Positions 352-32,656 of a stretch of DNA of 64,000 nucleotides are shown here, in pieces (position 1 is the stretch's first letter; each line of letters starts with the position of its first letter). The translations under genes were made by a program, and so were the position numbers. Source of the stretch: Styela clava (taxonomy: Eukaryota > Chordata > Ascidiacea > Stolidobranchia > Styelidae); the NCBI RefSeq assembly GCF_964204865.1, contig NC_135261.1, positions 13,082,001-13,146,000 of the forward strand, given 5' to 3'. The notes beneath the pieces are model-generated. The model saw only the letters and a list, made by a program, of their open reading frames with translations. It was not told where the DNA came from and did not search any database.

Positions 352-661
352 CTAGGTCGCTGGATTAGTTTTGATATACATCCGTGTCTCTTTATATGCT
401 TCGCTTCCACTCGAAAACGAGATTACACCATTCAAATTTGTGTTGGAGCATTCCGCCGTGTTTTCTTTCATCCACCATCCACCCATATTTGGATCCAAAC
501 ATTTTGAATTGCCCGCGGTTTTCGTGTCCCGTGCATAAAATTTTTCGCCGTGTGAACTTTCTATGAACATTTCACCGCCAGGATGATCTGATTTCATGTC
601 GTAGTTTCTTTCAGCTAACGTCAGCACCCAACCTGTGCTTTTTGCACCCACTTTGAATTCA
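352..661 (-). CDS. Fibrinogen-related domain, exon D and stop codon
   Basis: Acceptor GAATCCAG, phase 2 in, stop TAG at 352-354. It encodes EFKVGAKSTGWVLTLAE, a segment ending EKFYARDTKTAGNSKC, then LDPNMGGWWMKENTAEC, SNTNLNG and the end ETRMYIKTNPAT. Family landmarks: the second disulfide pair around GGWW (C-x-GGWW-x-C), SNLNG-like, and the terminal 'K-x-T-x-M-x-I' strand. The calcium-binding 'DRDND' loop is replaced by ARDTKTAG, so calcium binding is doubtful. A copy of the SINE family lies just upstream, in the intron before this exon. Confidence 0.85.
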
Positions 662-3600
662 CTGGATTCAACGAAGCATTTATATTATAAACGATTGGGA
701 GGGATTTATATATATATATATATATATATGAACTATGAATAAGATGATTTTGATGAATACTAAACGCCCCTCTTCGCAGGTTCGAATCTCGTGGGGGGTA
801 ATTACGCGGGAGAGGATCGCTGGACTGCTCGCCGCTGCAGGGTGGTTCACGCAACCGCTGGTTGGTTACGGCTTCCTTCATCATCAAGTCCTTGCACCTG
901 AAACAAATACTAGACATGGGATGGTAACCTGTTGAGAAGTAGTGGTTATCCATATGATTAGGCCGTCTTATCGGCTTTCCCCTATTTCGGTATAAATATG
1001 TAAATCTTATTCTTTGAAAATTCATGGTGGCAGCAGCAGTTGAACTCTGCAGTTTAGATTTGCGCAAAGCAAAACTACGGTCAATCACCTGAGATATAAG
1101 AATTCGGGAGTGGAATTGCATGACTAAATAGAAAAAATCCATCTATTCGCGTCGAATCATCTCGGATTTGCTGGTGTTGAGGGTTTCAATGGTGTGCATA
1201 TGGAATCAGTGCGCGTAAGCTAAATTTGTAGGATGACAGGTAGTTGAATTATTCTTAAATTCAAGTCTTGTAAGCTCCGTTGATAAAACTGAGCATTTCC
1301 ATTCAATAGATGCTGACGTGAATTAATTGATTGACACTTTACGTCATCAGGTTTTAGTCCAGTTTCCACGACGCGTTAAACTCACAAAACATAATTTGTA
1401 GATTTTGGGGGCCCAGTGGCTGACTATCATAGGACTTTGGGGAATATATTTACTTTACATTTAAGTAATGCTTATATACACTACTTCGAGAAAAATTGAA
1501 TCAAAAACATGAAACTCATAATGGAAGCTTTCAGCTTTGTCTATCATCCTAAGATGTATTTTAATAAAGCTTGCCAATTGCTAAAAGTACCATTTACATT
1601 GCATTGCAAAGTACCACATTTATAGCCCATTTTGGATAAGAAAAAAAAATTTGTTACGGCATTTTGAAACTGCAAACCTCAAAGTGCGAGACATGAACAG
1701 TGATAATCAACCTTTACTCTGTGCGAGCCAAATTGGGCAAATTATTCATATTGAATCAATAAGCGAGTATGTAATTGATACAAAGAACAGGATAGAAAAA
1801 GGTACAATTGCCCGTGTAACGTAGGTACCATTACGGTAAGTAAATTAGTGAAAGATTTCAAAAATACATGAAATACTCACCCGAAACTAAGCGCATGCAT
1901 TTTATTTGCCATCGGGGACGATTCTATAGCAATAATGAGTAAACTGTATTTTTCTTTACTAGTCACGGTATGTAAATCTTCTAGTCCTGAAAATTGATTT
2001 GAGTATTAATTTGAATAAATTATTTTTTAAATAAGCATTATGAGATATAATTGAAATAACCAAATGGAGACAATGAGACCGGACGAGTAATGGTGACATT
2101 TAAAAAAAAAATACCTAAAAAATTGTGTTTTTATTGATATTAAACGTCAAAAATTGTTTTCTCGTTCTCACGTCGCACAATCAGATCAGGATCATTTCAT
2201 TGTCCAGGTTTTTGAAGGTTTCTATGGAGCCTAGCAAAACGCCTCGGCTATAGTCAACGTTAATCATCTTTGCACTCCTCAATATAGTCATATTTTTTAT
2301 TTTCAAACTGTAATACAGCCAATGACTTTTTATCTTTATTCTCGGTATTCGGACCATAGAAACTAAAACCTACCAAACCAATAATCGCTATTTAAGTCGC
2401 CAAATGTTTGTTCATAGTCGGATAGGTCTTTATCCCATGTTCCAATATTAACATTTCTCTGAATCAGCTGAAATTGAATTACCAAATATGTGGAAGATGT
2501 TCTAGCATGGTGCATTGTCAATACAATATATTTAGTATTAAAATATTTCATGTTATTTGAATGATGTTCTCACAAGCAATGTATTTAAACAACATAGCTT
2601 ATATTGGATTTAGCCCAATGAAGTCAGCAGTTTTTTGCTAGCTATTGTACCTTTATGAGGAGCGATTCATATACAAACAAAACCGCACTTAATAGTTAAC
2701 ATCTATGACGTCACTTAGTCTTACCATAAATGGTCCGTCGAACACTGCCGGGACGTCTCCCTTGTGAGATATCTCTGGGTAGCAGCGGACACTACGGCCT
2801 CCCAATACATGAGGATCAAAATATATCCTAGCATCTACTTGAGTTGTAACATCCTTATCAGCACGAACGTCATCGCATTTCGAGGGGGCAATTAAACTAA
2901 CGTCTGAAAAATCAAGTTGCATTATCAAAGATTCGATTCGGAAAGGATTCGATAATAATTACAATATTAAAAATATAACCGTCAATATTGGAAGGTATAT
3001 TATCATGCAACACCACGATTCATGAAAGAGTTCTAAGTTTTCCACGGGTACTTTGTGAATTATAAAAAATATATGGTTTTCATAGAAGTATTTAGGTAAA
3101 TATGAGTAGGGCATTTCCCGTGAAACCATAGTTTTTGCATATCAGTAGAGGTTACGCGAGACTAACTCTCAATCCTTCCTCAATGCCTTGGATGCTATTG
3201 GATCCGTATGCTGTAGCAGGAAAAAATACCATACTATGCGAGTCCTGCTGCACACTCGACAAAAATTCATTTTTTAAACATTATTTATGTATGGGTGCAT
3301 TTACTACCTCGTTATTGTGTAGGAAATTCTCATTTATTTCATAGTGAGAAAACGTACTGTACATTATATACAAAATACAAAGAATTGGGTAGTGTGATAT
3401 ATGCTTTTCATCTTCATAAGTCTCATCTTCACAATCAAAATGTATAATTATATTATTTCCTAAATTATGTCGTTTTTCCCTCACCCTGTACGTCAGTCGA
3501 AAGCTCAGCTGTCTTATCTAAAAAAAATATACTATAAGTATATGCAAAGTATGCACAAAAAATATAGAACAAACACAATTTTTGTGGCAATGTCGCCGAC

Positions 3601-6600
3601 TAATTATTTATCTGAAACACATAAAAACAAGCTGATAATCCAGGTACAACTTTTTTGTATCGAGCTTGTAGGGTAAATTATTACATTGCTATATCTACTC
3701 TTGAATGAAAATTACAAACATGATTCACCTGTGACGAGTTTTGACAAGGCGGCAACTTTTTCTAAAAGGTACACATGTATATATTATTAAGATTTGCACT
3801 TTCGTAAAATAGCTTATTTGCTTAAAAAAATGAAAAAAGAAAAGTTCTGGTGATTGGTCAATCATGCAATATCAGAATATGCAGCTTCTACTTGTTCATA
3901 GCCATCTTGTTCATCATAATAATTGGTCTTTCTTGGCAAGGACTATTTCCGAAACCAAAAACACGCAATACCGTCCGTAATCGTGTAAATGTGGCTTTTA
4001 TATTGATTCGAAAAAAAAACACCTTTCATCGATGCGCTTTTTGATTTCCAAGAAACATACCCATACTGCCTTACAAGTAAGTTGGCTCTTCTAATGGAAT
4101 TTTTATGGGTCTAGAATCATGCTTGTTCATATAGTGATATAAAAAAAATTTTTTACACCCGGGCAGGCTTGGTAAATGGTGGTAAAATTGTAGAAAATAA
4201 TAGAACGTAAAATTCTATTGAAATGACGCGTATTGGCTTGTTTACGTCTGCCTACGCGTTTTAATTTTTGAAAAAAGTAACATATGTTGCATCAGGAATC
4301 CGTGGTGCAGTAATAATTAGGGTGTGACGTCATCAAAACTGCCAACTAAGGTGTTGAATTCGTAATATAAACGTGAATTTCAAAGTAACTATTTTGCTAT
4401 AATAAAGGTTGCGATGGGGTTTTGTTGTAAAATAGCAGAAGAAAACGTTAGAATGAAAATTCATTAGTTACAATTAATTCTTAACTCTCTACTAGGCACA
4501 CCTACTCTCAAGTTCAAGGTCATTTTTTACAAATTTCTGGCCACTTCGTCGCATAAAAATTTTTTGATTAGAGGAGTGGTTTTTAAAGTTATATAGCCAG
4601 ATAGAACTCTAGCATACGCTTGTAAAAAGCCGTGAGTAAATGTTTAGGGCCTAATAGTTGATAAAAACATTTTTTTTAAAGTGACCCATGTAAAATGAAC
4701 CCAGGTGAAACAGCTGAAAAAAGTTAAAGATTCTCTAGCCTGAGTTTAATATTTGTAAAAAAAAGTCGACTCAAAGCCAGTTCCCACACTCACAAACAAA
4801 GCATTAAGAAGGCCGAACTATGCTCGTCCCATGATGAAATCAAACCTTGGCTTTAGGACAAGTAATCAATACCCGTAATCAATAAAAAGCACACATATTG
4901 ATGCATCAACTCTATACAAAATAAGCAAAAACGTATAATATTGCAAACTTGCAAAAAAACACTGGTTGAAACTGGTTTCATAGTTTGAGACAATGCTACC
5001 AACAACGCAACTCAAATGTGGCGGTCTGATACATTGTTTATATTTCACATAGCTGTAAAAAAAATATCGAGTTTTTTCTGATACATTAACACTTCGAACA
5101 TTAACAAATGAAAGCTTAAAACTATTGGAATTTAACACATCACTTTTGACTGTAAACGCGTGTGTACAAAGAGTTTATCAATGTTTTACTTCCATAAATG
5201 TTTCCAAACACGAACAGATTTGGTTTAAAGTCATATAAGCCAAGTTTATCGCCATTGACCACTAGGTCTTTCTCTACAGTCTACAATCTACATAAACATG
5301 CAATTCGTGATTTTTCAATTTGATGCTTTTTTTTTCTATTAGGCATGGTTGAGCTGTGACTTCACTGCTGTGAATGCCAATTTTGTTTTGATATACCAAT
5401 CTTACAGGTTGACACCCATTATTCAGATGATTTTATTTGTTAAAAGAAATCTACATTGTCAATTGATATTATTTGATCCTGTAACTAGTACGCATTCATT
5501 CACTTACCTGTTATGTTAGTATCATGGTCTGTAAAATATGGAATATTTATTTGCACATTTTGTGAACAGGTAATTCGAGTAAAGCTTTATTAATTATCAA
5601 CAATTTGAGAATTTCTAAAAAAACAGTAAAAATATTAGGTCATTACGAATTACGATAAATATACAAATAATTTAAAATAACAATCTCACTGGTTATTAGA
5701 TTCTTCACTGCAGTTACATCAGCTAGATAAACATGATAAAAATGAAGTTAGTTTGTTCAAACGAATGCTATTTATATGCTTCAAATATTTTCGCAAGCCC
5801 GAATAAATTGCTCACCGGTTCAACAAAAACAAAATATTTCAAATTGACTTTATATTTACATAATTTTCATACGAAGTGTTTTTGCTTACTTGTGTATGAT
5901 ACAAGACTAGCTGTGTTTGCTGAAAACAATACAAAATGTTAGGTTATCAAATTCACAGTTTAATATCATCAATATTGAATTTATTAGAACATATTTCAAA
6001 CATACATCACATTATTGCCATTGAGATTGGGAATATGAGTCGAAAAATGTTCCTAGCTAACACAAAATACCAAAAAAATTTGTCTCTGCAAATTAATTCA
6101 GGCTGAAGAAGACTCAGAGAAAACTGACATTCGATAACAAACACTTCAGCGTATACAAGCTTTCTTTAATTGACTATTGTGACCAAAATTTTACGCATCA
6201 TCAAAGAATTTAAAATTTGGACTTCAACTCGGTTTTCAAATATGTACGGTATGTCTGTTTATTTACCTCAAAAATGTAACAGTATCTGCCTAGTAAATAA
6301 ATGGTATAACAGAGACGGGATACATGTTCAAAACAATACCAATAAAAGTCTGCAAACTGGGACTCAGTGTTAGTACAACATTTCTTTTTCTAATTGTTAA
6401 TCTGACACCATGTACAATAAAGTTAGTTAAGGCATACATTTACGCAATTTCACTCACTGTTTATGGTATCAATAACTGTTTTATGTCCTGTAAACCAAAT
6501 CATTTGAAACAATAAAATATTACACCAATCAGCAATGCCCTAATGCTACAGAACAGGATGGAGATACAGAAAGAGATTCCATCATTTTAATTTTACATAC

Positions 6601-9600
6601 TTTGTTTTAAAATGAATGAATGATAGAGCAATTGTGTAAATTTAAACAATTGTTTAAATTGAAAATGCTGTTATACCGAGCTAACTCCAACATGAGCAAA
6701 AAAATTTCTGGATAAATAATTGCAATTCATCATATCCAAAACTTTAAATGAGTGGCTTACTCGAGAGATAATACTAATATTTTTTATTACATTGAAGTAA
6801 TGCAAAACGCAGATATAGAAAATCAACATTTTTTGAAATGAAATAACAGATATATACATTCTACGCAATATTTTTAAATTGGCTTTTGTTTTTGAATAAA
6901 ACAAATCATCTCACCGCCTAGAGTAGTGCCCAATGTTGATGTTACAGCTAAATGAAGAATATAAAAGTACTTTTCGATTCAAATATTCTTTTACAACATA
7001 ACAAAGTTGTGATTCCAGGGAAAGTTATTTAAGCCGGCGGGCAGTGTAGCTCATAAAGAAATCAAGAAAATTATAAAAAAAAAATAATGTTCATTCAAGA
7101 ATTTGTGAAAATATTTCTAATCATACACTTAATTAATGATAACATGGGATTTATAATAAGAATAAAACATTTTAGCAGTTAATACAGAGATTCTTTATAG
7201 AAATTGATTTACCATTTATTGCATCGATCACTGTTTTATGTGCTGTAAAATGAAGAAATAAATTTAACAAGTAATTTTCATTTTTGTGAAGACAAGCACA
7301 AACATATAAAACAAGCGGTGCCTATGGGTTGAATATCCGTTGGGATTGTTCACAAAACAATTTTTAATCTTTCGATTTATGACATAATGTCCGTCTGTAT
7401 TTTTTTGGTTTATAAATTTTTTATTTCAAAATACGCTGTTGAGTATAAGGTCATGCAATATAGTCGAAAACGAGAGAGCAATGCCCAAATATATGTAACG
7501 TAAAAAAATTTGGTAGAAACATGTGGGATTCATAACTAAAATAAAAACGCATGAAACTTGCCTCAATTGTAAATGGGTTACATTGTTTCAAATATGCATT
7601 GCCATCAAATATTCATTCAAATTATCAACAAAGGTGGATTTGGTTGTTTGACCATTCATATAAACTAGTTTCTATAGTCAAAATAAGCAAGGTCAATGAT
7701 GAGAACTTTTCATTTCAATTCAACTCGTATTTAAATTCATTCATATCGAATTAGCAGCAACTCCAAAAAAATTTTCAGAATTGATAAATATTTTGGTCTA
7801 GGATTGGTGTGATAACGTACTAAAATAATTTTTAAAAAGCTGCGAGATATCAATCCATGTTTTCTATACTAATGTGATAGTTAAGTACCGGTAATACACA
7901 ATCATTGATTAATCTTAAAAATAGGTCACATAAATTTGAACAGTAAGTCAAAAGTACATGTTTATGATTGGCTATAGGCAATGATCCCAAATAAGTGTTA
8001 TTCAGAAGAAATGAATGAAATAGAAATTCAACTCACTGACAAGTGTAGTGCTCAGGTTACTTGCTGCAGCTATAAAACAAGAATATGGATTATAAAATTG
8101 AATATGAAAAACATCATCTGTCACTCTCCCCTAAACAAAGTACAACCTCAAAAGCGCATCTGGAGCAATAAAATAGGATAAGGTTGCAAAGGGCTCCTAC
8201 TACTGCCACGGTAAAATAATTGCATTAGAGAAACTTTTTTAATGATTATTTCCACTTTTTTATACTATCATTTTTCTCATAGATCGAATTTGACTGGTAT
8301 AAAGAAATATGAATTCAAAACAGTGTGTGACTGTATATTATTCTACAATTGAAAATACTCTCACTCAGATTTAAATCGTTTTCAACAAGTATTGATTGAC
8401 CATTATATATATTTCAGGCTCTACGTCGACTAACAACAGCAAAAGATTAAAATAATATACATTAAAGCGAAAAACGTTCAAGGGTGCAATAAAAGAGCAA
8501 TTCTTAAACACATGGACTTGAAGTGGGTTTGCATCAGTGCCGGTACGGTGAGGTTGAAGCTAAGTGCGCTAAAATGATCGGCGAAAATGCATGGTGAAAT
8601 AAAGTGTTTTCTATATTCAACTAAATGTGTCCAACAGCAAATTTTGGGGGAAATACAGGTAAGGGATAGGACTAAGGAAAATTAGAAATAAATGAAATAT
8701 ATGATAGCCATCTAGCAGCACCAATCGTTTAAGTACAAAAAATTTCAAATCAATTAATGTCTTAGTTGTGGAGTAAAGGAATCTTTTTTTAACGACAACA
8801 ACAATTTCTTGTTTGACGAGGCAAATATTTCTTTTTTCTTTTTGATTATACTTACTTGTTAAACCATCGCTGACCATTTTATGTGCTGTAAACAAGCAAA
8901 TATGTTTAATAAACAAAACAAAAAACATTCTCAAAAATACCATGTCATACTAGGGCTAGGCTGATATTAGTTGTCAGTAATATTAAGACAATCCAGTATT
9001 TTTAAACATCCCAAACGTCCTAAAGTCATACGTCATTTTCGAAATAGACCACAGAAACTTATCATTGTAGACGCTGAGCGTAGAGTATAGAAAAGTTTTT
9101 TTGTACCCAAAAGTCGAGGAAACATTGATTTAAACATAGTTTGAAACGAGAAATTGACGAATTAATGTTCCGATGGTATAATTTCATTTAATTGCGTAAA
9201 AGTATAATTTTTCTGTCAAATAGAATTTTGGCTTGCAGAACCATCAGATTCAAATCACACTGTTTTTAAGAGAAAATACTACTTTTTTATCTAAAATAAA
9301 CTTCACCCGTTTGTGCTGTCAGAATCTTTGTAGTTTCCGCTAAAACAATGAATATAGTAATTTCTTACAGAATGGCAAGAAAATATCATGCTTATAATGA
9401 ACAAAAAATAGAGTAAATATATCAAAATGTCTGTGACACAAAAATTCATTCAATATAATTGCGCTGAAACCAATTTTGTTTATAAACAAAATAACCTAAA
9501 GTTGAAACCGAAGAGTTTATTTTCATAATATCATCAAAATATAATGGTAAAAACATTCTGTGATTTATATATTGTTACAAAGCTTTCCCCTAAAATATTA

Positions 9601-21600: not shown

Positions 21601-24600
21601 AAATCGACTTGATGCATTTTCAGATATACAGATCGACTCTTCAAAAACGCACAAGCAACTTTTTAGTTCGAGTTTTTTGTCAAAAGTTTCTGTCTCTTTG
21701 GTATGTTTGAGTTTTGTTTGCAGGACTCAAGTAGCCTACACCAAGTCGTTGGAAAAAGTGACTATGGCTTATAGGGTTTATGATTTGTAAATTACATTCA
21801 ACTTGTTATAAAATCATATTACAAATAAAATAATTTCACTCACTTTTCATCCTTTCTATTGAAGATTGGTGATATTCTGGGATATGTAAATACTCTTTAT
21901 TTAATAAAATTTGCTGTACATATACTCAGATTGAACAATATTAAATTCAGGTTTGAATAAATAATATTTAAGAAAATCTGTTTTTTTTTTTTACTTTCGA
22001 GCGTGTTTAAATGATTCTAGTCACAATAAATTCAATAATCTGAGCAAAAATTATACCTTCCTATTTCATCTCCGTAGATTTTGTTTTAGAAGTTTATGAT
22101 ATTACCAGTTTTACTTATACCTATTTACATATATACAACATATATTATTGAAAATCATAAATTACATACAACGTACACTTCTGATTGTAGATTAAACCAC
22201 AGGTAACAAATAATTTGGAATCCCAGTACATGTTATATTACAGATGATAATACTGTCACAGTAATGTCAGTACACTATTTTAATGGACTTACTTTTATTA
22301 ACAATTCCCAATGTATTCAAATTGTCTGAAACAAATGATAAAGTTCTAACTGCATTCGAATTCGTTGAATTCGATTTTAATATATTAATTTATCTGTAGT
22401 GAAATATAGTTGACAACAGATTGCCTGATTGTTTACTCGAAGTACTTCGCCATCAGAATGGCTTCAATTGAAAAATCAAAATGTTAGTCATGTGTAGCAA
22501 CAGTAAAACTTAGGGAGTGTCAATTTTTATCAACATATTTAATAGGTTCAGTATCAAAATTATCCGAATTATCGAAAAGCTGGCGAAAGTCATGAGATCG
22601 CCGTTGTTATAATATATATCTATTTATTATATAGTAGTCAAATGAGGTAATGGATAGTTTTATTGGACAGCCATTAACAAGTTTGACAAAACATATCTAT
22701 ATCACAATATTGAGTTACTCACTGCGGAGACCATGCCAGGCAGTACTCATGTAAGCTGAATGAAAAAAAAATCTCTTTTGATTCAATGAATATATCAGAT
22801 AAAAATCCGTAATAGTTGTGAAGTATTTCTATAATTTTGACCATTAGCAATATATTTGTCTAGATGGGATTTTATAGAGTATTGGCGCCATATAAATTGT
22901 GTGTAATCATGTTATGAAAACATCAACGACTCGACCTATTTCATTCATTGCTTATTTCTGGAGAAAGCATATTACCGCTATGATACTCGGAGCAGCGGCG
23001 CTTGATGCAATCTCCTTGAAAAGGTGAATAACCCTTTCATCTAGTGGATTGATTGGCTCTCCAAAATAATCTCTAGTGGGCGATGTTAGTTGGCAAATAA
23101 AAATGCTACTAAAACTATATTCCTCGGCCCTTCAAACTTTTTAAATTTTACCTAGACAAATATAACTTTGAGTGGCGCTCCTTGATAACGAGCGTCGGTT
23201 TTTCATGGCTTTTTTCAATTATAACATTGTGAACACTTCGCTTTCAATTTTGTATACGCAGTTTTTACTTCCTCACCAAAATAAACTTAACTGTGATAAT
23301 ACTTACCCACTGTTCCTTTGTTCCCAGAAACAATTTCGCCTTAATTGAAACAATGGACGATATGAAATATTGAACTTATGAACAAGAGAGCAATACTCAA
23401 ATATATGGACACGTTAACTAGAGCGAAGCAGGTCTTGCCTTTGACGCTACTGGTACCCTCAAAAAATTTCCGAGTTTCGCGTAGCAAGAACTTACAGAAT
23501 CATACCGGACAAGCAAGCGAAATTTTGTAGGAAATATCAGATTTCATACGAAATTCAGAAATAAATAAAAGTAATAGCCTTCTGGCAAAAAAAATCAATC
23601 TTTAACCACTGAAAATTTTAAAGCAATTGGTCCAGTATTCGGAGAGAAAAGCGATTTTTCAATGATAATGATGACGAACAAGAGAGCTATGCTCAAATAT
23701 ATGGACACGTTTCCCGATTCCAAGAAAAGCACCAACGTTTAAAGACATCAGTTATAACAGTGACTGCAAGCCCCGCTTTTACGATACAATTATGAATTAG
23801 TTCAGTGTCACCGCGCTGTGTTACGGTACCGGAACTGCCCTATCTTTAGAAGTTCCTGTCTTGTGAAAACGTGAATTTAAGTTGCAAGATGGTCCGACTC
23901 ACGACTGTAGTAACACCAACGATCCGAGTCACTACTGTAACATAACACCAAGTACGGCACTATTCGCCATTCACCCTTCCTCAAATCTTAGCAAAGCAAG
24001 GATTTCGTTACGAACCACCGACGTTCAATGGCATGTGAGCAGAAGAACACGAAGAGGAGTGCCAGCACATGCGTCCAAAGAACGTTCGGCGACGTCATAT
24101 CATACAAAAACAAATCTCACTTGAGCTAACAGAAATATTTGAAATAAATTAAAGTAATAGCCTTCTGAAAAAAAATTTCATCTTTAACCACTAAAAATTG
24201 GTCGAGTAATTTAAGAAAAAAGCGACTTTTTAGATTTTTCACTAGGTGTCCAAAAAGTGTCAAAGAACAACAACACAAGAGAGCTTTGCTCAAATATATG
24301 GACTTGGATCGTCACATAATTTGATGACGTCATAGCAAAAAATAAAAGTAATAATTTTCTGGAGGAAAATTCCATCTTTCACCACTGAAAATTTCAAAGC
24401 AATTGGTCCAGTAATCGAAGAGAAAAGTGATTACTTCAAAACGTGTCAAAGTACAAGAACAACATAACAACAAAATGTTTGTTATGATCACTACGTGTCC
24501 AATATTATTAAAACGAGAAAATTAGGAGGATGCCTATATTAGGTCGAGGAAATCGTGAAACCTCAAATATGTATATCGACTAAAAGATAAAGTAATAGCC

Positions 24601-27600
24601 GGGGTGCTGGAATGAAAACTACAATTTTACAAACACAAAATTGTACTTACTCGTTAATTCAGTTCTCAGGCTTCGGCGTGTACCTGTTATCAAAATGCAG
24701 CCGAATGCTCAAGTCTATGCTTCCGTAAACAAATAACTAACTAATCCCATACCCGACACGGAATGGTAACCGGACGAAAGACCGTAGTTCGCCGTATGGT
24801 TAAGCCGTCTTATTGACTTTCCTCTCCCACTGGATAAATATGTAAATTCTATACTATCCCAAAAAGTTATCGTGAAATAGGGTCTTGAAAGTTCGCGTAA
24901 CCGGTGGTCGATTACAGTTTCTGCCACCATCAAGTTCATGAATAGGGAACAAATGACTTGGTAAATCATCACATACTCGTGTAGCGAATATGAATTGTAA
25001 CTATGGATTATAATGTTATTTAACTCCTTCATTATAATAGTATGTTGCATTCTCTGAAATAGGTCACTGTATGATTTGCGACAGCCATAAAGCCTTCGTT
25101 CTATATAGCCTTCTTTGTAAGCGACCAATTTGCTAACGTATGTTTCCGGTTACGCCGAGAAGGCTGAAATATATTGTGATATTATTCTGTTTTTGACTGC
25201 ATTAAGGGTTGGGTGTATTTTCAATATATATGTATTTGTATTGGATTGTGGAATTTTCAATATAACAACATTTGTCATTCAATACATTGTGTTTATTATT
25301 GACCACTGAAGGAGTCCAGATTGGGAGTTACATTCCATACTGCTTGTTCAATAACACGGGAATCGACTATCTATAGAAAGTATACTTATAGGGACAAACA
25401 ATTCCCCCATTCTCGACACGGACTGTTAACCGGATGAGAGTCCGTGGTTCGCTATATGATTAAGTCGTCTTATCGACTTTCCTCTCCCGGGATAAATATG
25501 TGAAACCTAAGTCAGTATGTGTCAATATGTGGAACAAGTTTGCAACGTTTCATTTTTTTCATAAAAATACCCCAAATGATGGAGGCAAAACGAATCACAT
25601 AACTTTATGTAAGTTTATTGATATTCATGACTCCTAAAAAAAACAAAGAATTTATACATATATCTTACCTTCAATCGCTGATGACATATAATTGAAAATG
25701 GCTGTTAAATAAATCATAAATCGTCTTGCGGGTTTTATAACAATGCAAAATATTATTATATGTATAGCATTCTATATGTAGTACGCTACTAGGAAGTTAA
25801 TATTTTTTGAAGTTATACCGAACAAGCAAAGTACAAAAGGAAGGAAATATAGGCTACTCACAGTTCATTTCCGAGCGCATCAGTATAAGATTATCTAAAG
25901 GAAGCATGATTTAAAATATTGATATTTTGACCATACAAGTACACTATTTTTCATTTTTCAGGTAGAGACAAAAATCTATCATTAATAAAACTTTGCTAGT
26001 AAAACTATCGCCATAAATGTTGCAGACAAGCAACCCTGTTTTTGAAATCACTAAGTCAATTATTCTCAGTTTCAAACCCAAAACAACATGAAAATAACAA
26101 GTTATTATTACCGTTAAGTGCCATTTACCTTTTATCCTGTATGATAAAGTTGTTGTTTGTTCTAAAATTGATATGGAGTTGCATAAATAACCCAATATAT
26201 GCTTGAATTTTGTGAATGGTTACACCATCTGACTCACTTTCTACTCGTTAATACAATTTTCATACCTTTTGACTTTTCCAAATATGTGCTTTTCATTCCT
26301 AGGAGAAACAAATAAAAAAGAGGTTACTCTTTTTTCTTTTATTTCTGCGTTTTTTTGATTAATATTGTCTTACTTTCATAAGTCACGAATACTTTGGATA
26401 GAACATCTAAAAAAAAAATTAGATGAATTGGCAGAATCAAGCAAAAACAAAAATTATTGGAAGTTGTTTGGATCATTTAAACTGTATCTGTGTTGGTATT
26501 GGAATTTTCAGTTTGAATATGTTGCCTAATGTAATCGATAAAACCAACTATTCAATAAAAAATAATCGTATAATAGTTTTATGCATATGTTTATACAAGT
26601 TAGACGCAATTTATTGATTGAATTATACTCGAATTCAGCCCTTTTACCTTTAAAATTAGACATCATCAATTTGTTCTGTCCTGTAAACATAAAGTTACAA
26701 TATGAAAGTATTTAATGATACGGACATGCTGAATAATAGTAAAAGATAAACCATCTAATTCATTATTAAAATAAATAGTTTGACAATTATGATTCCACTT
26801 CATTTACGACTAAACAACGGTGTCATTTCCAAACAACAAACAATTTGTTGACCGTGTAAATAAAATCGCTTTGCTTTGCCACGCCCCGCGTTTAAAAATT
26901 TGAGCAAATCACATTATAAACGCAACTGTGACTGTCTGTATACACCGTCGTACAACTGTGCTTATATACAACAATAATAACTGTGCTTATACAGATCAAG
27001 AGATGCATGATCATACCTTGAGAAACAATTGACAGATAGCTTGTAATACCTGAATATATCAACAAAATCGATAATTATTTTACGCATAAACACTTGATGA
27101 TGTCTCAATTCTATACAGAAAAGGTGTGTTACCTTAACACAGCAGGGCTATATATGTTCTATGGAAAACCCTGTGTATAGTATTCAACACTTGAATTATA
27201 GATGTGATATTTTTATATCTTATAATTTATAATGGCGAAAATGAAAATTCGTGATGAACAACTCATATTACAAAACACTTTCCAAACTCACCATTTGCTC
27301 TTTGAACAATATATCGATGTGTTGCTAGAAATATGCAAAAAAAAGTAATATAAATGTAAAAACATTTAACAGTATATCTTCATTTTTGTGAGAAAGTTTT
27401 TACCAATTTGTGTTAACAAAATATAGTCTTTGACTAACGGACTTTTTCAGTTGTTCCTGATGTATTCTGGTAAACTAAATCTATACGTTAAACACGAATA
27501 AATCGGGGTATTTCAAACTTAAATTTTTTTAATCATCAGTACACAACATGTTTTTCTAGTGACGATTGAAAGCTGCATTTTTTTATACTTGTTGAGTTTA

Positions 27601-30600
27601 TGAGTTGTTGTTTTGATGATGAAGTATATAATATTAATCTAAGAGACGTCGGCCCATAAGGATTATTTCGAAATATTTATCAGTACAAAATTAGGAAATT
27701 CTTTAGTGCAGTGTAGAAAATATTATTACATTTATCATTGAAAATGGTATCTGAAATAACTTTGAAGTACTGAAATAAGTTTATTTCTGATTGCCATACT
27801 TGGTTCTTGATTAATGAAGTAATAAATATCAGCTGAGACAAAAACTTTATGAGATAAAACTGAATAAAAACGCACCATCAAACTGGAAGAACATCCGTTT
27901 TGTCAGGACTGAAATCAAAAAGATAATTGAAAAATAAGGAAGTGAGCTTTAAAAATATATTATATATATATATACTTGTATATCTAATTATCACAGTAAG
28001 TACGACAGCTTGCATATTGATCACAAGATCGAAACACATGTTTAAATATTAACCGATTAAATCAGGGGTATGCAATGCGCCCACAAGAAAAGATTGTGCG
28101 CCCGCGGAGGATAGTCTATTGCGAATGATGTGCGGTCACGAAACGAGTAATTTAATTTATTGTGGTACGTGCAAGTACTTTCAACCCCTTTGCGTTGCAA
28201 ATCCTATATCTGAGCCCAAATTATTATTCATGCCTATGATGTTACGATGCCCTAATAGCCAGCTTGTGGGAAGCGAACAACGCATGTCATGTGCCTGCAA
28301 CTACTAGAACGCCTATGGTAAATAAAGGTGTGTACCGCGGTTTCACCCAGTTATTTGTATTTGGCCCGCCTGTATTAAAGGTTGCACACCCCTGGATTAA
28401 GTCATTCCTTAGCATTAGCCTACATTTTACTCCCGAGCTAGCTACTATAGTTTTGATGACGACCGGTAAAAATTATATATTCTAATAATTTAAATTTGTT
28501 CTATAATTTACCTTCCATGCTCGAACTACTTCGACGTTCTTGTCCTGCAAATGAAAAATGTTGGTCACTAAAAAACATTTTAAATTAAACAACTTATGCA
28601 GCGATGATTTGGTTAGTTGTGAAATGAGGCCAATGAACTATAACTACAAGTATTTTTCAAACAACAAATATCAACAAATAAAGTCCTAATCTAGTATTAT
28701 ATGCAGATCTCACTTTCTAGAATTTCTTCCAGTTCCTTTCTTTCATCTTGAGAAAAACAAAAAATGTTAGTAGAAGTTTTATCACTAAATTGAAAAAATA
28801 AAAAAAACATTCCTATCAAATTACCATAATATTTTGTGAGATATACTCAGTTTAATAATATAAAATATTCTATGATCTCTCAACGTTATTTTTGATAAAT
28901 GAATCTAGATGAATATATGAAATAAAAGTAATTAAAGACATTATCGTAACATGGTACTGTATGCAAAACTTGCCAAACTTTAGAACCATATGTAATATGT
29001 ATAATAACCTGCTAGCATCTCCTGTATTGAAATATGCTTGTCTTCTCGGTCTTTTTCCACGGCTTCGAAAAGGTAATTTTCACGGTTAACATAAAAACTA
29101 TGTCCAACAAATTCTATGTATATTAATCATGAAAAACGTATCTCAAAACAAAGTTGAATAAACATTTTAAAATTTAAAATAACTGCAAAACACAAATAAA
29201 ACTCAACTACACTCCTACAACACCCTGCATCCAACAAATGCCGCAAATATTTTAACGCGATTAGTTGTACAAAATTTCATGATGCATTCTCCTGGCGTTA
29301 TTATAACAACGTCTTCAATGACCACTCGAAATTTAAAAATAAAGTACTTCTCTCAATATTTTATTTCTTGTTCACCTTACCTTTTAACTTTTCGTGTATT
29401 TCATCTTTGAATTCTATATCAAGTGTTCAAAAAAATAAACGTTAAATGGTGTAGGGTGGTAGTAGTATATTCAATGCAAAATTACATTCCGTACCATTGA
29501 TGTTGTTAGATATTTTCTTTCGTGATTCTTCATCTTGTGTCTGGTGTATATCGGCTTCTTTTTTTACATCTGTTATCAAAATACCGTTTATTTATTTTGC
29601 TGACAAAAACATTGGACTCAAAAATAAATAAAATAATAAATCTTGAATTTATCTAATTTATTACAGTTATTGTTAATGATTTTCAACCTGTGAAACTTTT
29701 AAGCCAAAGAAATTTTGATGAAGGAGATTGATTTCACGCATTCAAAAATTTGTTCAAATAGACGATACTGATTTTCAAATATATACAATGCATGTAGGAA
29801 TCGATGAATGCATGTAATAACTGAAGAATTCAACATGTAGTTTGGCCATTTATACCTTTAATTCCATCTTTTACGCGCAGAACCTCTGTAATATAATAAA
29901 TATTTATATAATATAATGATTTTAAAGATCAGTGATAATATAGACCTTGTTGTCACCATTGCGGTAAAATTTTTAATTGCCCCTCCTATGGTATACTTCA
30001 TATGATAATTCTACTTCATATTTGGGCTCATATTTAAACTAAGCGATATATATATGATGATATAATAGATATATATATATATATATATTGAAGGTGTAAT
30101 ATTGCACGCAAAGTCTTGTGGTATTTTATTTCTTTAAAAATAATTTTGATTTAAAACATACGCTAATTGCCTAAGCCCGACATCGTCTTATTTGTTTCAA
30201 ACACAGAAATATTTGCCATAATTTAACTGCTTTTTAGTAGTAATTTAGAGTAGATGATACCTTTTTCACAATTTAAAACACAATTGGAACTAATTTGTAA
30301 ACGTAACTTACCGTCAAATATTTCTTCAGCTGCAAAACGTTAAAAAGAGAATATAAAAACTAATTTTAAAACTTCTGTGTTAGGCCCATAACTTTCGGAG
30401 CACTGGTAGTGGTTTACTTTGTTACTTATAGATCTCGATCGGTAAGTATGTTGATAGGTATTTGTCTGTTAGACACTTTCGTATGTTACGCGATATCTCA
30501 CAAAAGCGAGGTTGAATCTGCTCCAAATTTTGCATGTACATTCATATATCTCGGTCCAAAAGCCTATTGATGAAGTGAATTATGTCATATAATTAGCGAG

Positions 30601-32656
30601 TTAGTAGGTAGTTAGTGATGGGACACGCGGTGTCGCTATTGAGTCACAGTGGAGGAATCGAAACCACAGTTTCTGTTTTGGGGGATTCCCTAACTTTCGT
30701 CGCTTTTTTTTCGACTTTGTTGGGCTGGTTGAGTAAAATATTGAACATGCTGAAGATCGTAAGTCGGCGGTCTCCGATCGTATATCGTTTTACTATTACT
30801 GAAAATTAGGTGTGAAATGTTACAAACCCAAATGTTTAATCGATTGATCTCTGTACAATCATATATTTTTTTTTATAAATTTAACAACAATTATTTTGAA
30901 CAAAACTTACATTTTCTCTTCTGTTGATCAGCGATTCTTTTGAGATCTGTATTATTGAGATAAAATTATGTTGGGAATTGGTGTTCAACTGATCGGAAAT
31001 GTCACAATATTTAATCGAATATTTAATCAAAACAGCTAATTTAATTCTGGAAACAGTTGCTATACCCAATCTTATATTTAACTTTAATTTACATCAAGAT
31101 ATCGAGAACTTTGAAATACCTCACTATTATACAAAAGTTTTCTTACCATAAATCAATAAACGAGTCTCAAGTACTTCTATAAATAAAATGTTAATTCATT
31201 ACAACTAATGAATTTTCATACCATAATATTATTATTGGCCCAACCAATTGATAAAAAAGTTGTACTGAATTTATAAGGAGAACTTTGATGTCGAAGTAAA
31301 TGACGAATTACACAATTATTCAACTAATATAGCACAGGCTAAATTTCAATTTAAATGTGGCTTAATTATAAAAGTATGTTTTCCATCTATTTATCTCTTG
31401 GTCGTCGATAACTTTATTTCTGTTTCCCATAGATAAAATATGGGTAGTATACCTTGCATCAATTGTTGTCTTGTCTCTTTTTTCTGAAAACAATTCAATC
31501 GACAAAATAAAACAATGGTTAGTCGTGATCAATAAATGTCCATATTTATTAGTTCGTGACTCAAGCAGAAATTTGCAAATATTCAATAACCACAAATCTA
31601 TAATATGAAATAAATTATTTGAATTACCATTGCCGTGCCAAATTTTACTGATTCCTGGACATGAACCGTTCCACATCAATACTGATTTCAACAATTTAAA
31701 ATACGAGATTTGCTCACAAATAATATCCTATGATTATCAGCAGCTGTTAATTTTCAATCATTTTGTGTATATGTAACTACAATAAAACCTTAAGCCAAGC
31801 ATATCAAGTGTCACCAAATTTGATATTTTATCTACATTTCGCTTATATGATATATAAAAAAAAAATAACAAATAAATCCGCATTTTCGATCGAATGGCTT
31901 TCTCTGACCTACATTTGACCCCAATGTATCAGTAGATTTGCACCAACCTCTCTTAAGTTCAATCCATTCATCACGAACGAAGCAGTGGACAGCATGACAG
32001 CACATACAACCAGCCCAGTAATAATTCTCAAGACGAAAGCTGGTAAACAAAGATACTACTGGGTAATAATCACTTTAAATTGTTGTAGTACATGTTCTAT
32101 TTGTGAGTTGATAACATGACTTGTCTATGGAAATAGCAAACTAGGTTTTCAACGCATATATTATTAATAAACGTATGATTACTTTTTTGTAATGTCAATT
32201 TACTTCTGCAACAATTATCATACGTGGAAAAACACAATTTCGAACACAAAAAATCTATATGTGCCCATCACGAAAGTACGTAACTGTTCCACCAGTACTT
32301 TTTCAATAATTGATTGATCGTGACTTTGTTTTGGTCAATTTTACTTGTAAAACTATTCTTGAATATATAATTTGGTCATAGATCTTTCAAAACTAATTCA
32401 TTTCGACCTACTTTTGCGATTGTGCATCACTTACACAATTATTTTAGATTCAAGATGAGGTTAACCCAATCGTCCATCGATGATAACTTAACTACATGCT
32501 GATGGCGTGGTATCATTATTTTATTTTCTATGCTTTTTATAAGTGGGGCTTTCTCATTCTGGTTGCACAATACACACCTGCATACGTAATTGATGTCGCG
32601 ACAGCGGCGTAATTTTCCGCAGCTTGGTCTGGAGAACGAGAGCGAGATCTTCCCAT
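352..32656 (-). CDS. Microexon-built type II membrane protein with fibrinogen-related C-terminal domain (whole gene)
   Basis: Spliced model of about 59 exons, 820 codons including the stop (about 819 aa) in about 32.3 kb. Order: cytosolic tail (exon 1), one transmembrane segment (exon 2), about 550-residue stalk (about 53 small exons), fibrinogen-related domain (last four exons). Every exon listed in the block entries has an AG acceptor and a GT donor, mostly GTAAGT or GTGAGT, and the reading frame passes through all of them. From the exon at 30911-30946 to the last stalk exon, every intron is phase 1 and every exon length is a multiple of 3. The architecture (type II anchor, long stalk, C-terminal fibrinogen domain) is that of FIBCD1-like receptors, but I recognise no orthologue. 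A role in surface recognition of carbohydrates or non-self is inference from the fold. Weak points are the exon 2 donor (GTTGGT), the exon at 26245-26265, and the join at 2334-2373. Confidence 0.85.
700..1015 (+). mobile_element. tRNA-derived SINE copy, preceded by (TA)n
   Basis: A B-box-like GGTTCGAATC, then GAGAGGATCGCTGGACTGC...GGGTGGTTCACG, then the body GGTAACC...TTAGGCCGTCTTATCGGC...ATAAATATGTAAATC. The same modules recur in order at about 12.1, 24.75, 25.4, 39.65, 41.5 (inverted), 43.1 and 62.55 kb. It sits in the intron between fibrinogen exons C and D. A run of TA dinucleotides (about 708-729) precedes it. Confidence 0.7.
2276..2333 (-). CDS. Fibrinogen-related domain, exon C (left boundary unsettled)
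   Basis: It encodes KKSLAVLQFENKKYDYIE, matching the 'LRVDLxDWxGxxxYAxY' strand of the family, and ends in phase 2 at a GTGCAA donor. That phase is exactly what the next exon needs (GA|T GAA TTC gives DEFKV). Its start is uncertain. A 40-nt GT-AG intron at 2334-2373 keeps the frame but shortens the domain. Alternatively those bases are coding (SFYGPNTENK lies in the right frame) and a one-base frameshift separates this part from exon B. Both readings are discussed in the findings. Confidence 0.6.
2374..2467 (-). CDS. Fibrinogen-related domain, exon B
   Basis: Acceptor AATTTCAG, donor GTAGGT, phase 0 in, phase 1 out. It encodes LIQRNVNIGTWDKDL, then SDYEQTFGDLNSDYWF. This aligns with the family core 'WTVxQRRxDGSxDFxRxWxxYxxGFGxLxxEFWLG': QR, W, DY, FG-L and the final WFG are kept, while the GGGWT motif that normally precedes QRR is missing. 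This is the strongest evidence that the C-terminal domain is a fibrinogen fold. Confidence 0.85.
2725..2903 (-). CDS. Fibrinogen-related domain, exon A
   Basis: Acceptor TTTTTCAG; phase 1 in, phase 0 out; donor GTAAGA. It encodes DVSLIAPSKCDD, then a segment with ARIYFDPHVLGGRSVRCYPE, and ends in FDGPFM. The two Cys (SKC and VRC) match the first disulfide of fibrinogen C-domains, whose usual start is a Cys, then a Gly-rich 'SGxYxIxP' segment, then 'VxCDM'. Here the wording is divergent (ARIYFDP, VRCYPE). It is followed directly by the strand exon at 2374-2467. Confidence 0.8.
3485..8885 (-). CDS. Stalk block 5: domain-proximal microexons (9)
   Basis: 8856-8885 (30 nt) AHKMVSDGLT; 8037-8069 (33) TAASNLSTTLV; 7213-7242 (30) THKTVIDAIN; 6915-6947 (33) AVTSTLGTTLG; 6458-6487 (30) GHKTVIDTIN; 5690-5722 (33) ADVTAVKNLIT; 5508-5528 (21) NHDTNIT; 3729-3761 (33) KKVAALSKLVT; 3485-3517 (33) DKTAELSTDVQ. 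The alternating 30/33 exons are recent duplicates of one two-exon unit. The sequence is rich in Thr and Ser, with sequons NLS and NIT. The last exon ends in phase 1 and joins the fibrinogen exon at 2903. Confidence 0.8.
9307..15789 (-). CDS. Stalk block 4: mixed 33-, 30- and 21-nt microexons (13)
   Basis: 15757-15789 (33) QKVTNLTTLVT; 15651-15683 (33) NEVANIKTKIG; 14776-14796 (21) DESTNIQ; 13943-13975 (33) AETTKIQTTQG; 13126-13155 (30) EHEVYINATK; 12298-12330 (33) KAVVDAEATVT; 11837-11857 (21) QHILSVT; 11560-11580 (21) ARVEIIA; 11290-11322 (33) DNVTEIKNITE; 10326-10346 (21) DRTAEIL; 9852-9884 (33) TKMGELDTLVK; 9614-9634 (21) AESTDIQ; 9307-9339 (33) AETTKILTAQT. Hydrophobic residues recur at positions 3, 6 and 10 of the 11-mers and 3 and 6 of the 7-mers, which is hendecad plus heptad spacing. 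N-glycosylation sequons: NLT, NAT, NVT, NIT. DESTNIQ-AETTKIQTTQG and AESTDIQ-AETTKILTAQT are clearly duplicated neighbours. Confidence 0.8.
11560..12015 (-). repeat. Tandemly duplicated exon-plus-intron unit
   Basis: The two 21-nt exons (11560-11580 and 11837-11857) are each flanked upstream (higher coordinates) by matching intron sequence: TTTTAGCTATGAAATATTTTT...AAGTTTACATCTT near 11645-11700 and TTTTGGCGGTCAAATATTTTT...AAGTTTACATCTT near 11925-11985. The spacing is about 280 bp. This shows directly that stalk exons multiply by local DNA duplication. Confidence 0.6.
12095..12230 (+). mobile_element. SINE copy with tRNA-like head
   Basis: The head reads GGTGGTGTGGCGCATCC...AAGCGCTGGAAATATG...GCGCCTCCGATCACCC...GCAGGTTCGAAT, i.e. 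A-box- and B-box-like pol III promoter elements at tRNA spacing, followed at once by the ATAAATATGTAAATT tail. The middle of the element is deleted. It is the best copy for showing the tRNA origin of the family. Confidence 0.65.
13562..13835. mobile_element. hAT-like non-autonomous element remnant
   Basis: It begins near GCCAGGGGTCAGACC, contains GTGGGCCACA and GGCCGCGGGCCACACACCTG, and is about 270 bp long. The layout (CAGGGGTC end, 'gggcc' islands) resembles the elements at about 18.6, 21.05 and 28.06 kb. No clean target duplication is visible. Confidence 0.4.
14904..15139. mobile_element. GGTGCTCC-type MITE, full copy with 8-bp target duplication
   Basis: Long terminal inverted repeats: GGGGCTCCCGAAGTATGCGA at the left and its complement ending CTTCGGGAGCACC at the right, each running into the AAGATGGCGGAC segment. 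The flanks CAAAAATG (14896-14903) and CAAAAATG (15140-15147) are identical, as expected for hAT-superfamily insertion. The interior holds a second inverted region around GGTTAGGGTTAGG and CCTAACCCTAACC. It lies in the intron between the exons at 14776 and 15651. Confidence 0.8.
16384..23339 (-). CDS. Stalk block 3: thirteen 33-nt microexons and one 21-nt
   Basis: 23307-23339 SEIVSGNKGTV; 22723-22755 AYMSTAWHGLR; 22293-22325 NNLNTLGIVNK; 21844-21876 KYHQSSIERMK; 21431-21463 IDVKILQSKLN; 20877-20909 AQTGDVGAMIR; 20409-20441 DQSRVNYKHHA; 19491-19523 AIFRSIENSAA; 19092-19124 DVKSEAKKDAK; 18123-18155 EAKDEVLEKIE; 17757-17789 ERTYFLKKELM; 17327-17359 ASRTQVGQKII; 17187-17219 GLNEDLTKVIT; then 16384-16404 (21 nt) DHRTAIE. 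All but the last are exactly 33 nt with near-consensus donors (GTAAGT, GTGAGT, GTGAGC, GTAATT, GTTAGT and similar). Introns run from about 110 to 1000 bp. The run of 11-residue units suggests a hendecad repeat. Some middle units are less clearly helical (Gly, His). Confidence 0.8.
18605..18780. mobile_element. hAT-like element end
   Basis: GTCAGGGGTCGGCAACCTTT...GCGGGCCAAAATT...GGCGGGCCGCACATA is a typical end of short hAT-like elements in many animals. The other end and a target duplication were not found. Confidence 0.4.
20035..20354. mobile_element. MITE copy ending in a 21-base poly-C tract
   Basis: From CAGACATGGGAAAAGTACGG through GGCCAAATGCGACC, GCCACAACCA, TTGGCACGAGA and AACGTCACACAT to GCCCCTGGTCTAAAAACC. 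It is collinear with 34130-34525. It is followed by an uninterrupted run of 21 cytosines (20334-20354), a probable polymorphic or hard-to-sequence tract. Confidence 0.55.
21055..21245. mobile_element. hAT-like element remnant
   Basis: The stretch contains AAACCAGGGCTTTGCGACGC at one side and GGCGGGCCGCAGATGGC...CACTGGTTTAAACC at the other, with GTGTGCACACCATTC inside. TTTAAACCA and TGGTTTAAA form the inverted ends. It lies in the intron between the stalk exons at 20877 and 21431. Confidence 0.4.
23340..24470. repeat. Three to four imperfect copies of a repeat module
   Basis: Two motifs recur: GAGAGC(A/T)(A/T)(T/G)(A/G)CTCAAATATATGGACA at about 23390, 23683 and 24279, and CTTTAACCACTGAAAATTTTAAAG...TTGGTCCAGTA...GAGAAAAG at about 23600, 24180 and 24370. 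A lone relative of the first motif is at about 7466. The module fills most of a stalk intron. No coding content was recognised in it. Confidence 0.5.
24651..28544 (-). CDS. Stalk block 2: microexons, mostly 33 nt (8)
   Basis: 28512-28544 (33 nt, RQERRSSSSME), 27292-27324 (33, ATHRYIVQRAN), 26648-26680 (33, GQNKLMMSNFK), 26374-26406 (33, DVLSKVFVTYE), 26245-26265 (21, SMKIVLT; tentative), 25862-25894 (33, NNLILMRSEMN), 25669-25677 (9 nt, SIE), 24651-24683 (33, GTRRSLRTELT). All are phase 1 in and out. The 21-nt exon relies on a GTAGAA donor; a stronger GTGAGT seven bases on would give 28 nt and shift the frame, so it may be skipped. The 9-nt exon is flanked by CATCAG and GTAAGA and adds only three residues. 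Confidence 0.65.
24745..24850 (+). mobile_element. SINE 3' part
   Basis: CCATACCCGACACGGAATGGTAACCGGACGAAAG...TTCGCCGTATGGTTAAGCCGTC...CCTCTCCCACTGGATAAATATGTAAATTC matches the 3' half of the SINE family. The tRNA-like head is absent. Confidence 0.6.
25405..25505 (+). mobile_element. SINE 3' part
   Basis: CCCATTCTCGACACGGACTG...CCGGATGAGAG...TTCGCTATATGATTAAGTCGTCTTATCGAC...CCCGGGATAAATATG. It is the same truncated half of the SINE as the copy 650 bp away and in the same orientation. Confidence 0.6.
28063..28394. mobile_element. hAT-like non-autonomous element with target duplication
   Basis: The left end CAGGGGTATGCAATGCGCCC and right end GGTTGCACACCCCTG form short inverted repeats. Flanks GATTAAAT (28055-28062) and GATTAAGT (28395-28402) are an 8-bp target duplication with one change. 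The two open frames inside look like chance. Confidence 0.65.
28714..30946 (-). CDS. Stalk block 1: charged coiled-coil exons (7)
   Basis: Exons in coding order: 30911-30946 (36 nt, DLKRIADQQKRK), 30312-30329 (18 nt, SEEIFD), 29856-29885 (30 nt, EVLRVKDGIK), 29495-29569 (75 nt, starts DVKKEADIHQ), 29381-29404 (24 nt, DEIHEKLK), 29009-29062 (54 nt, AVEKDREDKHISIQEMLA), 28714-28746 (33 nt, DERKELEEILE). All have TTTCAG/TTACAG-like or AAG acceptors and GT donors, and all are phase 1 at both ends. The peptides are rich in Glu, Lys, Asp and Arg with spaced Leu/Ile/Val, as in an alpha-helical coiled coil. This membrane-proximal part has the most varied exon lengths of the stalk. Confidence 0.75.
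30050..30092. repeat. (TA)n simple repeat
   Basis: An alternating TA-rich tract within a stalk intron; shorter ones are at about 11588 and 27958. Confidence 0.7.
31453..31654 (-). CDS. Juxtamembrane stalk exons (2)
   Basis: 31628-31654 (27 nt, ESVKFGTAM; acceptor GTCCAG, donor GTAATT) and 31453-31483 (31 nt, KKETRQQLMQ plus one base; acceptor TTTTCAG, donor GTATAC). The 31-nt exon converts phase 0 to phase 1, and every later stalk intron keeps phase 1. These two are the only stalk exons not symmetric in phase, so they probably cannot be skipped alone. Confidence 0.65.
31948..32039 (-). CDS. Exon 2: signal-anchor transmembrane segment
   Basis: Acceptor TTACCAG, then 92 nt encoding a hydrophobic stretch, residues 32-50 of the protein (IITGLVVCAVMLSTASFVM), bounded by Arg31 on the cytosolic side and NGLNLRE on the outside. 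No cleavage site is obvious, so it should act as an uncleaved signal anchor. The donor GTTGGT after GAG is not strong. It is chosen because it leaves phase 0, which the next two exons require. A stronger-looking GTAGGT further on would break the frame. Another frame of this stretch is open for 72 codons but has no suitable start and is rejected. Confidence 0.75.
32578..32656 (-). CDS. Exon 1: start codon and cytosolic tail
   Basis: ATG with A at -3 and G at +4 opens 26 codons beginning MGRSRSRSPDQ and ending SITYA, then one base and the donor GTGTGT. The tail is basic (alternating Arg and Ser) and carries Tyr16 in a YAAV context and Tyr25. A YxxV motif can bind SH2 domains when phosphorylated, but this one lacks the hydrophobic residue at -2 of a classical ITIM, so signalling is only a suggestion. 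The positive charge before the membrane segment fits a type II (N-terminus inside) topology. The exon joins exon 2 in phase 1. Confidence 0.8.

Follow-up and report, generated by a model that had tools for sequence, protein, structure and literature searches.

A row of phase 1-1 microexons in Styela clava probably encodes an anchored coiled-coil rod with a fibrinogen-type head

In ANGPTL3 and ANGPTL2 a coiled coil is followed by a fibrinogen domain, the proteins being secreted with a short coil encoded by ordinary exons, and in fibrillar collagen genes the 54-bp exons tie exon length to the structural repeat of the rod. FIBCD1 is composed of an N-terminal cytoplasmic tail, one membrane segment, a coiled-coil region, and a C-terminal fibrinogen domain, and the available part of its description places the acetyl-binding S1 site at Cys414, His415, Tyr431, and Tyr405 (PMC10825690). 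Rows of small exons are described in schistosomes, where the available text presents MEG genes as rows of symmetric microexons that make up much of the coding sequence and give small, mostly secreted proteins, and SmVAL6 as a conserved domain joined to a row of small exons (PMC4015677). Each ascidian v-Themis gene lies in the first intron of an s-Themis gene, on the opposite strand, and is variable from end to end (PMC7018956). Ficolins and other lectins, and nothing of the build presented here, are named in the accessible text of a review of tunicate immunity (PMC5465252), and the accessible portion of a Styela paper mentions fibrinogen in its reference list only (PMC11988888). A search by title and abstract, mostly of journals outside subscription, returned no hendecad or 33-nt exon rows and no such gene, and within that range of journals the statement of the initial annotation that no gene of this build had been described still stands.

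The window analyzed was a 64-kb stretch of Styela clava DNA, and all exon coordinates are given as its positions on the minus strand. A chain of 65 exons from 32674 to 352 was read as 922 amino acids and a stop codon. All 64 introns (73-1746 bases) were bounded by GT-AG, and exons 4-61 were without exception of phase 1-1 (58/58). Forty exons measured 33 nt, seven 30 nt, and seven 21 nt, the other eleven having single values, and the exons of at most 51 nt (57/65) together accounted for 64% of the coding sequence. Most exons were taken from mechanical scans for AG..GT segments open in phase. Visual inspection of the DNA gave the positions of exons 2, 3, and 10, of the start codon, and of exons 62-65, which code for the head. 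The chain was fixed before comparison with the NCBI proteins, and the Pfam scan of the head preceded the chain. The gene model of the initial annotation was nearly right, with its count of about 59 exons revised to 65 and its start moved from 32656 to the NCBI start codon at 32674.

The stalk opens with exon 3 (31453-31483; 31 nt, phase 0-1), followed by the phase 1-1 exons 4 (31176-31147; 30 nt), 5 (30946-30911; 36 nt), 6 (30329-30312; 18 nt), and 7 (29885-29856; 30 nt, with a weak donor), and by exons 8-10, considered below. Exons 11-37 (17187-28746) formed an unbroken run of 27, each exactly 33 nt, of phase 1-1, and apparently coding for one hendecad; they lie at 28746-28714, 28544-28512, 27908-27876, 27324-27292, 27049-27017, 26680-26648, 26406-26374, 26298-26266, and 26161-26129 (exons 11-19), 25894-25862, 25701-25669, 24683-24651, 23339-23307, 22755-22723, 22325-22293, 21876-21844, 21463-21431, and 20909-20877 (exons 20-28), and 20704-20672, 20441-20409, 19955-19923, 19523-19491, 19124-19092, 18155-18123, 17789-17757, 17359-17327, and 17219-17187 (exons 29-37). 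The distal stalk, exons 38-61 (3485-16404), comprised 24 phase 1-1 exons of 21, 30, or 33 nt at 16404-16384, 15789-15757, 15683-15651, 14796-14776, 13975-13943, 13155-13126, 12330-12298, and 11857-11837 (exons 38-45), 11580-11560, 11322-11290, 10346-10326, 9884-9852, 9634-9614, 9339-9307, 8885-8856, and 8069-8037 (exons 46-53), and 7242-7213, 6947-6915, 6487-6458, 5919-5890, 5722-5690, 5528-5508, 3761-3729, and 3517-3485 (exons 54-61). The stalk as a whole amounted to about 630 residues, which at the standard helix rise of 0.15 nm per residue would give a rod of about 95 nm. The Pfam scan of the stalk returned matches below the cut-off only, and Rfam gave no match within the 64-kb window.

Hydrophobic residues occupied fixed places in the 33-nt exons (n = 40), namely position 6 in 33/40 and position 10 in 29/40, followed by position 3 in 15/40 and position 2 in 12/40, while positions 1, 4, and 11 were hydrophobic in 2, 4, and 4 of the 40. 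This contrast between columns was reached by none of 20,000 within-exon shuffles. The hydrophobic period was 3.66 residues (11/3) in exons 12-37 and 3.56 in exons 3-11; in exons 38-61, which include 21-nt exons, it came to 3.54. The directions of the hydrophobic moments were concordant among the 33-nt exons (n = 40; R 0.79, p about 1e-11), with similar means of 141 degrees in the 28 proximal and 153 degrees in the 12 distal exons. For the two wrong frames, which were open in 12 and 17 of these exons, R was 0.24 and 0.23. Counted from the exon end, the second and sixth residues were hydrophobic in 46/59 and 40/59 stalk exons, versus a fraction of 0.45 in open intron windows; in the 21-nt exons this was the case for the second residue in 7/7 and for the sixth in 0/7. 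Among the symmetric exons 4-61, 49/58 had lengths that are sums of 7 and 11 residues, the remaining nine being of 30, 36, or 18 nt. Hendecad coiled coils are marked by a 3-4-4 core spacing and a period of 11/3, so that exon and structural repeat would coincide here; the weakness of position 3 as third core position (15/40) counts against a hendecad coil, as do the nine exons that are no such sums and the sixth residue of the 21-nt exons. On this residue pattern each 33-nt exon appears to correspond to one coiled-coil hendecad, a register that the initial annotation had not noticed.

Two NCBI entries from Styela clava, both predictions, cover most of the chain. The 760 residues of LOC120330418 corresponded to chain residues 163-922 with no indel and three substitutions (at 474, 714, and 779), covering part of exon 10 through exon 65 with all 55 junctions in agreement. 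In LOC120330417 (119 residues), residues 1-111 were identical to the chain over exons 1-7, and the tail GINGQTTC was what the window itself encodes when the exon-7 donor is read through as far as a stop in intron 7. That intron (29570-29855), inside which LOC120330417 ends, contains AATAAA three times. Altogether, 61/64 junctions agreed with the NCBI entries, the junctions 7/8, 8/9, and 9/10 being in neither, and neither model contains exon 8, exon 9, or the 5' part of exon 10. Among proteins of 0.55-1.75 times 922 residues, only LOC120330418 was returned by the full-length search (7999 candidates sharing most words scored) and by the head-region search (436 candidates). Querying with the first 187 residues (185 candidates) gave LOC120330417 alone.

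The chain reads through as the putative single gene of the initial annotation, but the NCBI annotation splits it between exon 7 and exon 10. This split sets the fibrinogen exons apart from the membrane exon, the very outcome that the initial annotation had named as speaking against its model, although in predicted entries. Taken at face value, the entries would be two neighboring genes, one (exons 1-7) for a single-pass membrane protein of 119 residues and one, starting in exon 10, for a coiled-coil/fibrinogen protein of 760 residues. The separate entries with consecutive LOC numbers agree with this, as do the weak exon-7 donor (score -0.9), through which the upstream model reads to a stop, and the weak splice sites of exon 10 (29009-29062; 54 nt, acceptor -0.9, donor -0.1), where LOC120330418 starts at an internal methionine and where an in-frame stop upstream would fit a separate 5' end. 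An alternative exon-10 acceptor at 29113 keeps the same frame. Against two genes stands exon 9 (29381-29413), in neither NCBI model, of 33 nt and with good splice scores (acceptor 1.9, donor 6.9). Exon 8 (29495-29569; 75 nt), also in neither model, had a donor score of 3.3 and a weak acceptor (-0.4), the latter speaking against its being joined. Exons 8, 9, and 10 encode 25, 11, and 18 residues, each a sum of 7s and 11s. They have open frames in phase with the stalk, and, like the stalk exons, all three carry hydrophobic residues at the second and sixth places counted from the end. Two genes are therefore unlikely, and one gene is favored because exons 8-10 keep the phase and register of the stalk and exon 9 scores well, and because LOC120330418 by itself would start at an internal methionine and lack a leader, which would be unusual for a four-cysteine fibrinogen domain. 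By these sequence features exons 7 to 10 would be joined, and the two-entry annotation is a probable error in which one chordate gene was split. A short membrane form without the distal stalk and the head might also be made via polyadenylation in intron 7.

At the N-terminus of the favored single gene, exon 1 (32578-32674; 97 nt, phase 0-1) carries the start codon and a basic tail (residues 1-32), identical in LOC120330417, and exon 2 (31948-32039; 92 nt, phase 1-0) carries the hydrophobic segment, whose presence, claimed in the initial annotation, was borne out by the best 19-residue hydropathy windows of the protein, starting at residues 31, 32, and 38. The charges beside the segment do not decide topology. 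Six N-glycosylation sequons were found, all within exons 39-59, a number not above that in shuffles of the distal stalk (p 0.117). As the head and the sequons should lie outside, the segment would be a signal anchor in type II topology. The same single gene could instead begin with a cleaved leader and give a secreted multimer like ficolin and not a membrane receptor: the stretch of small residues STAS at the segment end may, we assume, be a cleavage site, and the flanking charges do not favor an anchor. The hydrophobic stretch is, however, long and 31 or more residues from the start, which is unusual for a cleaved leader, and this reading has only a small chance of being correct, smaller than that of two genes. 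In exon 39 (15757-15789), residue 474 is N in the window and S in LOC120330418, a change that removes the first of the six sequons.

The head is encoded by exon 62 (2725-2903; 179 nt, phase 1-0; cysteines 703 and 734), exon 63 (2374-2467; 94 nt, phase 0-1), exon 64 (1881-1986; 106 nt, phase 1-2), and exon 65 (352-661; 310 nt, phase 2-0; cysteines 874 and 891 and the stop codon), and these are the four cysteines of the head, the stalk having none. A possible polyadenylation signal AATAAA at 299-304, 48 bases 3' of the stop codon, alone proves little given a background of 1.58 per kb in the introns of the gene. The head was identified as a fibrinogen C domain (PF00147, E 1.8e-13; score 51.3 bits, cut-off 22), found also in LOC120330418, in agreement with the C-terminal fibrinogen domain of the initial annotation. 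Domain and structure prediction had been proposed there as checks; the former gave PF00147, whereas AlphaFold2 on the LOC120330418 sequence alone returned a poor model (mean pLDDT 39.2; most of the stalk helix, with a few strands) that lent no support. Sequences of 22 solved structures matched the head, the nearest being ANGPTL3 (E 4.4e-9), ANGPTL2 (1.9e-7), and FGL1 (2.9e-7), and the FIBCD1 structure 4m7f matched at E 1.3e-6.

The head has D-T-K at the place of D-R-D in ANGPTL2, which we take to be the calcium motif, and ANGPTL3 has D-H-K. The ANGPTL2 match has a weak second stretch, which points to a gap of 17 residues in the head after NLNG. With the S1-site residues of FIBCD1 placed onto the head as we presume they fall, a Ser follows the conserved Cys and WWM stands in place of WWY. 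An acetyl-lectin function like that of FIBCD1 would not be supported for this head because of D-T-K and the suggested loss of 17 residues. The role in immunity or self/non-self recognition raised in the initial annotation found no support either, with D-T-K in place of D-R-D and 3/760 residues differing between two sequences. That the gene is a relative of v-Themis serving self-sterility or allorecognition, as the ascidian source and the fibrinogen domain might suggest, is very improbable given that the window and LOC120330418, the two sequences compared, differ at so few residues. No s-Themis (polycystin-like) domain was found by Pfam in 20 of the 36 ORFs of at least 90 aa, a scan in which a small-exon gene could be missed.

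Elsewhere in the window, exons of a BCS1-like mitochondrial chaperone were identified on the minus strand, with the lid domain at 40062-40352 (E 8.4e-20) and BCS1_N below the cut-off at 41834-42145. An uninterrupted ORF of a ubiquitin-conjugating enzyme occupies 44758-45327 (minus strand; UQ_con E 5e-48), two exons of a proline dehydrogenase gene lie at 54027-56934 (minus strand; E 1.3e-8 and 1.3e-6), and a 66-base tandem repeat of three copies with 93% matches is present at 35159-35357.

The exon row was compared with three control stretches similar in size to the locus. Phase 1-1 AG..GT candidates numbered 82 on the minus strand of the locus versus 13 on the plus strand of the same stretch and 20 and 14 on the two strands of the rest of the window, and the other eight phase combinations gave 12-36 candidates in the locus versus 11-29 on the minus strand outside it. 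At looser thresholds, candidates of exactly 33 nt numbered 41 in the locus versus 1, 4, and 3 in the three controls. The best automatic chain in the locus (62 exons, 39 of 33 nt) scored 277.6, and the control stretches scored 29.6, 37.8, and 24.7. It recovered 55/58 of exons 4-61 of the 65-exon chain, missing exons 7 and 10, which have weak splice scores, and exon 29, replaced by a longer variant, and adding 7 extra segments. That AT-rich DNA, which yields many such matches and in which several single splice sites of the chain are weak, produced the chain by chance has a negligible probability, since the score exceeds the maximum of 40.8 among the controls and 20 first-order Markov simulations and the same exons are present in the NCBI proteins. 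The controls and simulations rejected a chance origin and, together with the NCBI proteins, confirmed that the long minus-strand row of phase-1 microexons seen in the initial annotation is real.

Traces of the growth of this row were sparse. Among the 11 matches listed in the self-comparison of the locus, one overlapped exons (54 and 56, 35 nt) and ten lay elsewhere. The best same-length exon pairs were 54/56 (23/30 nt), 41/50 (16/21), and 42/51 (25/33), and of the 33-mers only 42/51 exceeded the maximum (22) of 200 shuffles. Most exons are without traceable common descent by sequence, and a few distal ones are recognizable copies. Recent exon duplication and recent intron gain by repeats were considered and rejected, the introns being without a shared recent origin. 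Exon duplication, mostly old, is likelier than separate intron insertions because phase, length, and register are all fixed together. All that the introns of the gene have in common is dispersed repeats, each about 100 bases long and 72-85% alike, at 25504, 24846, and 1004 and at 24432 and 23656.

The reading we prefer, with reasonable though incomplete confidence, is one Styela clava gene for a 922-residue protein, an anchored long coiled-coil rod with a fibrinogen-type head whose stalk grew by hendecad-exon duplication. The product would start with a short basic tail, followed by a single hydrophobic anchor, an alpha-helical coiled-coil stalk, and the head, and is probably a divergent fibrinogen head on an N-terminally anchored rod. 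The stalk may have grown as a symmetric phase-1 exon equal to one hendecad (11 residues, three helical turns, 3-4-4) was duplicated time after time, with heptad exons (21 nt) and 30-nt exons mixed among the hendecads nearer the head. Several chains bound by the coil, a rod of about 95 nm, would cluster the heads far from the cell surface, and the product could act as a multivalent, long-reach recognition or adhesion molecule. The reading frame would survive the gain, loss, or skipping of any of exons 4-61, and with 49 of these 58 exons being sums of 7 and 11 residues most gains and losses would keep the coil in register. Skipping of 33-nt exons would change stalk length in steps of 11 residues, about 1.6 nm. 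The analysis itself showed the exon chain with its phases and lengths, the hydrophobic register, the head domain, and the match to the NCBI proteins outside exons 8-10. We infer the joining of exons 7 to 10, the topology, the oligomer, the ligand, and the use of exon skipping. More tentatively, and with the balance somewhat against it, the gene may be an exon-coded extensible rod, in which duplication sets and skipping tunes the reach of the head over tens of nm with frame and register intact.

If correct, a splice boundary would match the structural repeat of an alpha-helical rod 40 times in one gene, and the old question of whether exons follow structural units would become testable in a single gene. 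Runs of phase 1-1 exons of 33 nt would also provide a search rule for further hidden stalk genes. What was already known consists of two uncharacterized database entries, while the unity of the gene and its exon-per-hendecad design are undescribed as far as these searches reach.

Compared with the known systems, FIBCD1 is the closest by protein layout within its available description, the link from anchor to head in the Styela protein running through exons 8-10, absent from the NCBI models. The coiled-coil region that FIBCD1 has between membrane and head is suggested in the Styela protein by the sequence pattern (period 3.66 and register), but the Styela stalk is far longer and coded by 59 exons, and its head matches ANGPTL3 better; ANGPTL3 and ANGPTL2 are the nearest solved structures to the head by sequence. 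Like v-Themis, the product is an ascidian fibrinogen-like protein, but the Styela gene differs little between the two sequences compared. By gene design, and by this only, the schistosome MEG genes and SmVAL6 are the closest in the part of their description available, the Styela gene likewise placing 64% of its coding sequence in symmetric microexons, whereas the Styela exons are nearly constant in length and would each equal one structural repeat of a coil. That exon-to-repeat logic is common to the Styela gene and collagen, applied in collagen to the triplets of a triple helix and in Styela, as the register suggests, to alpha-helical hendecads.
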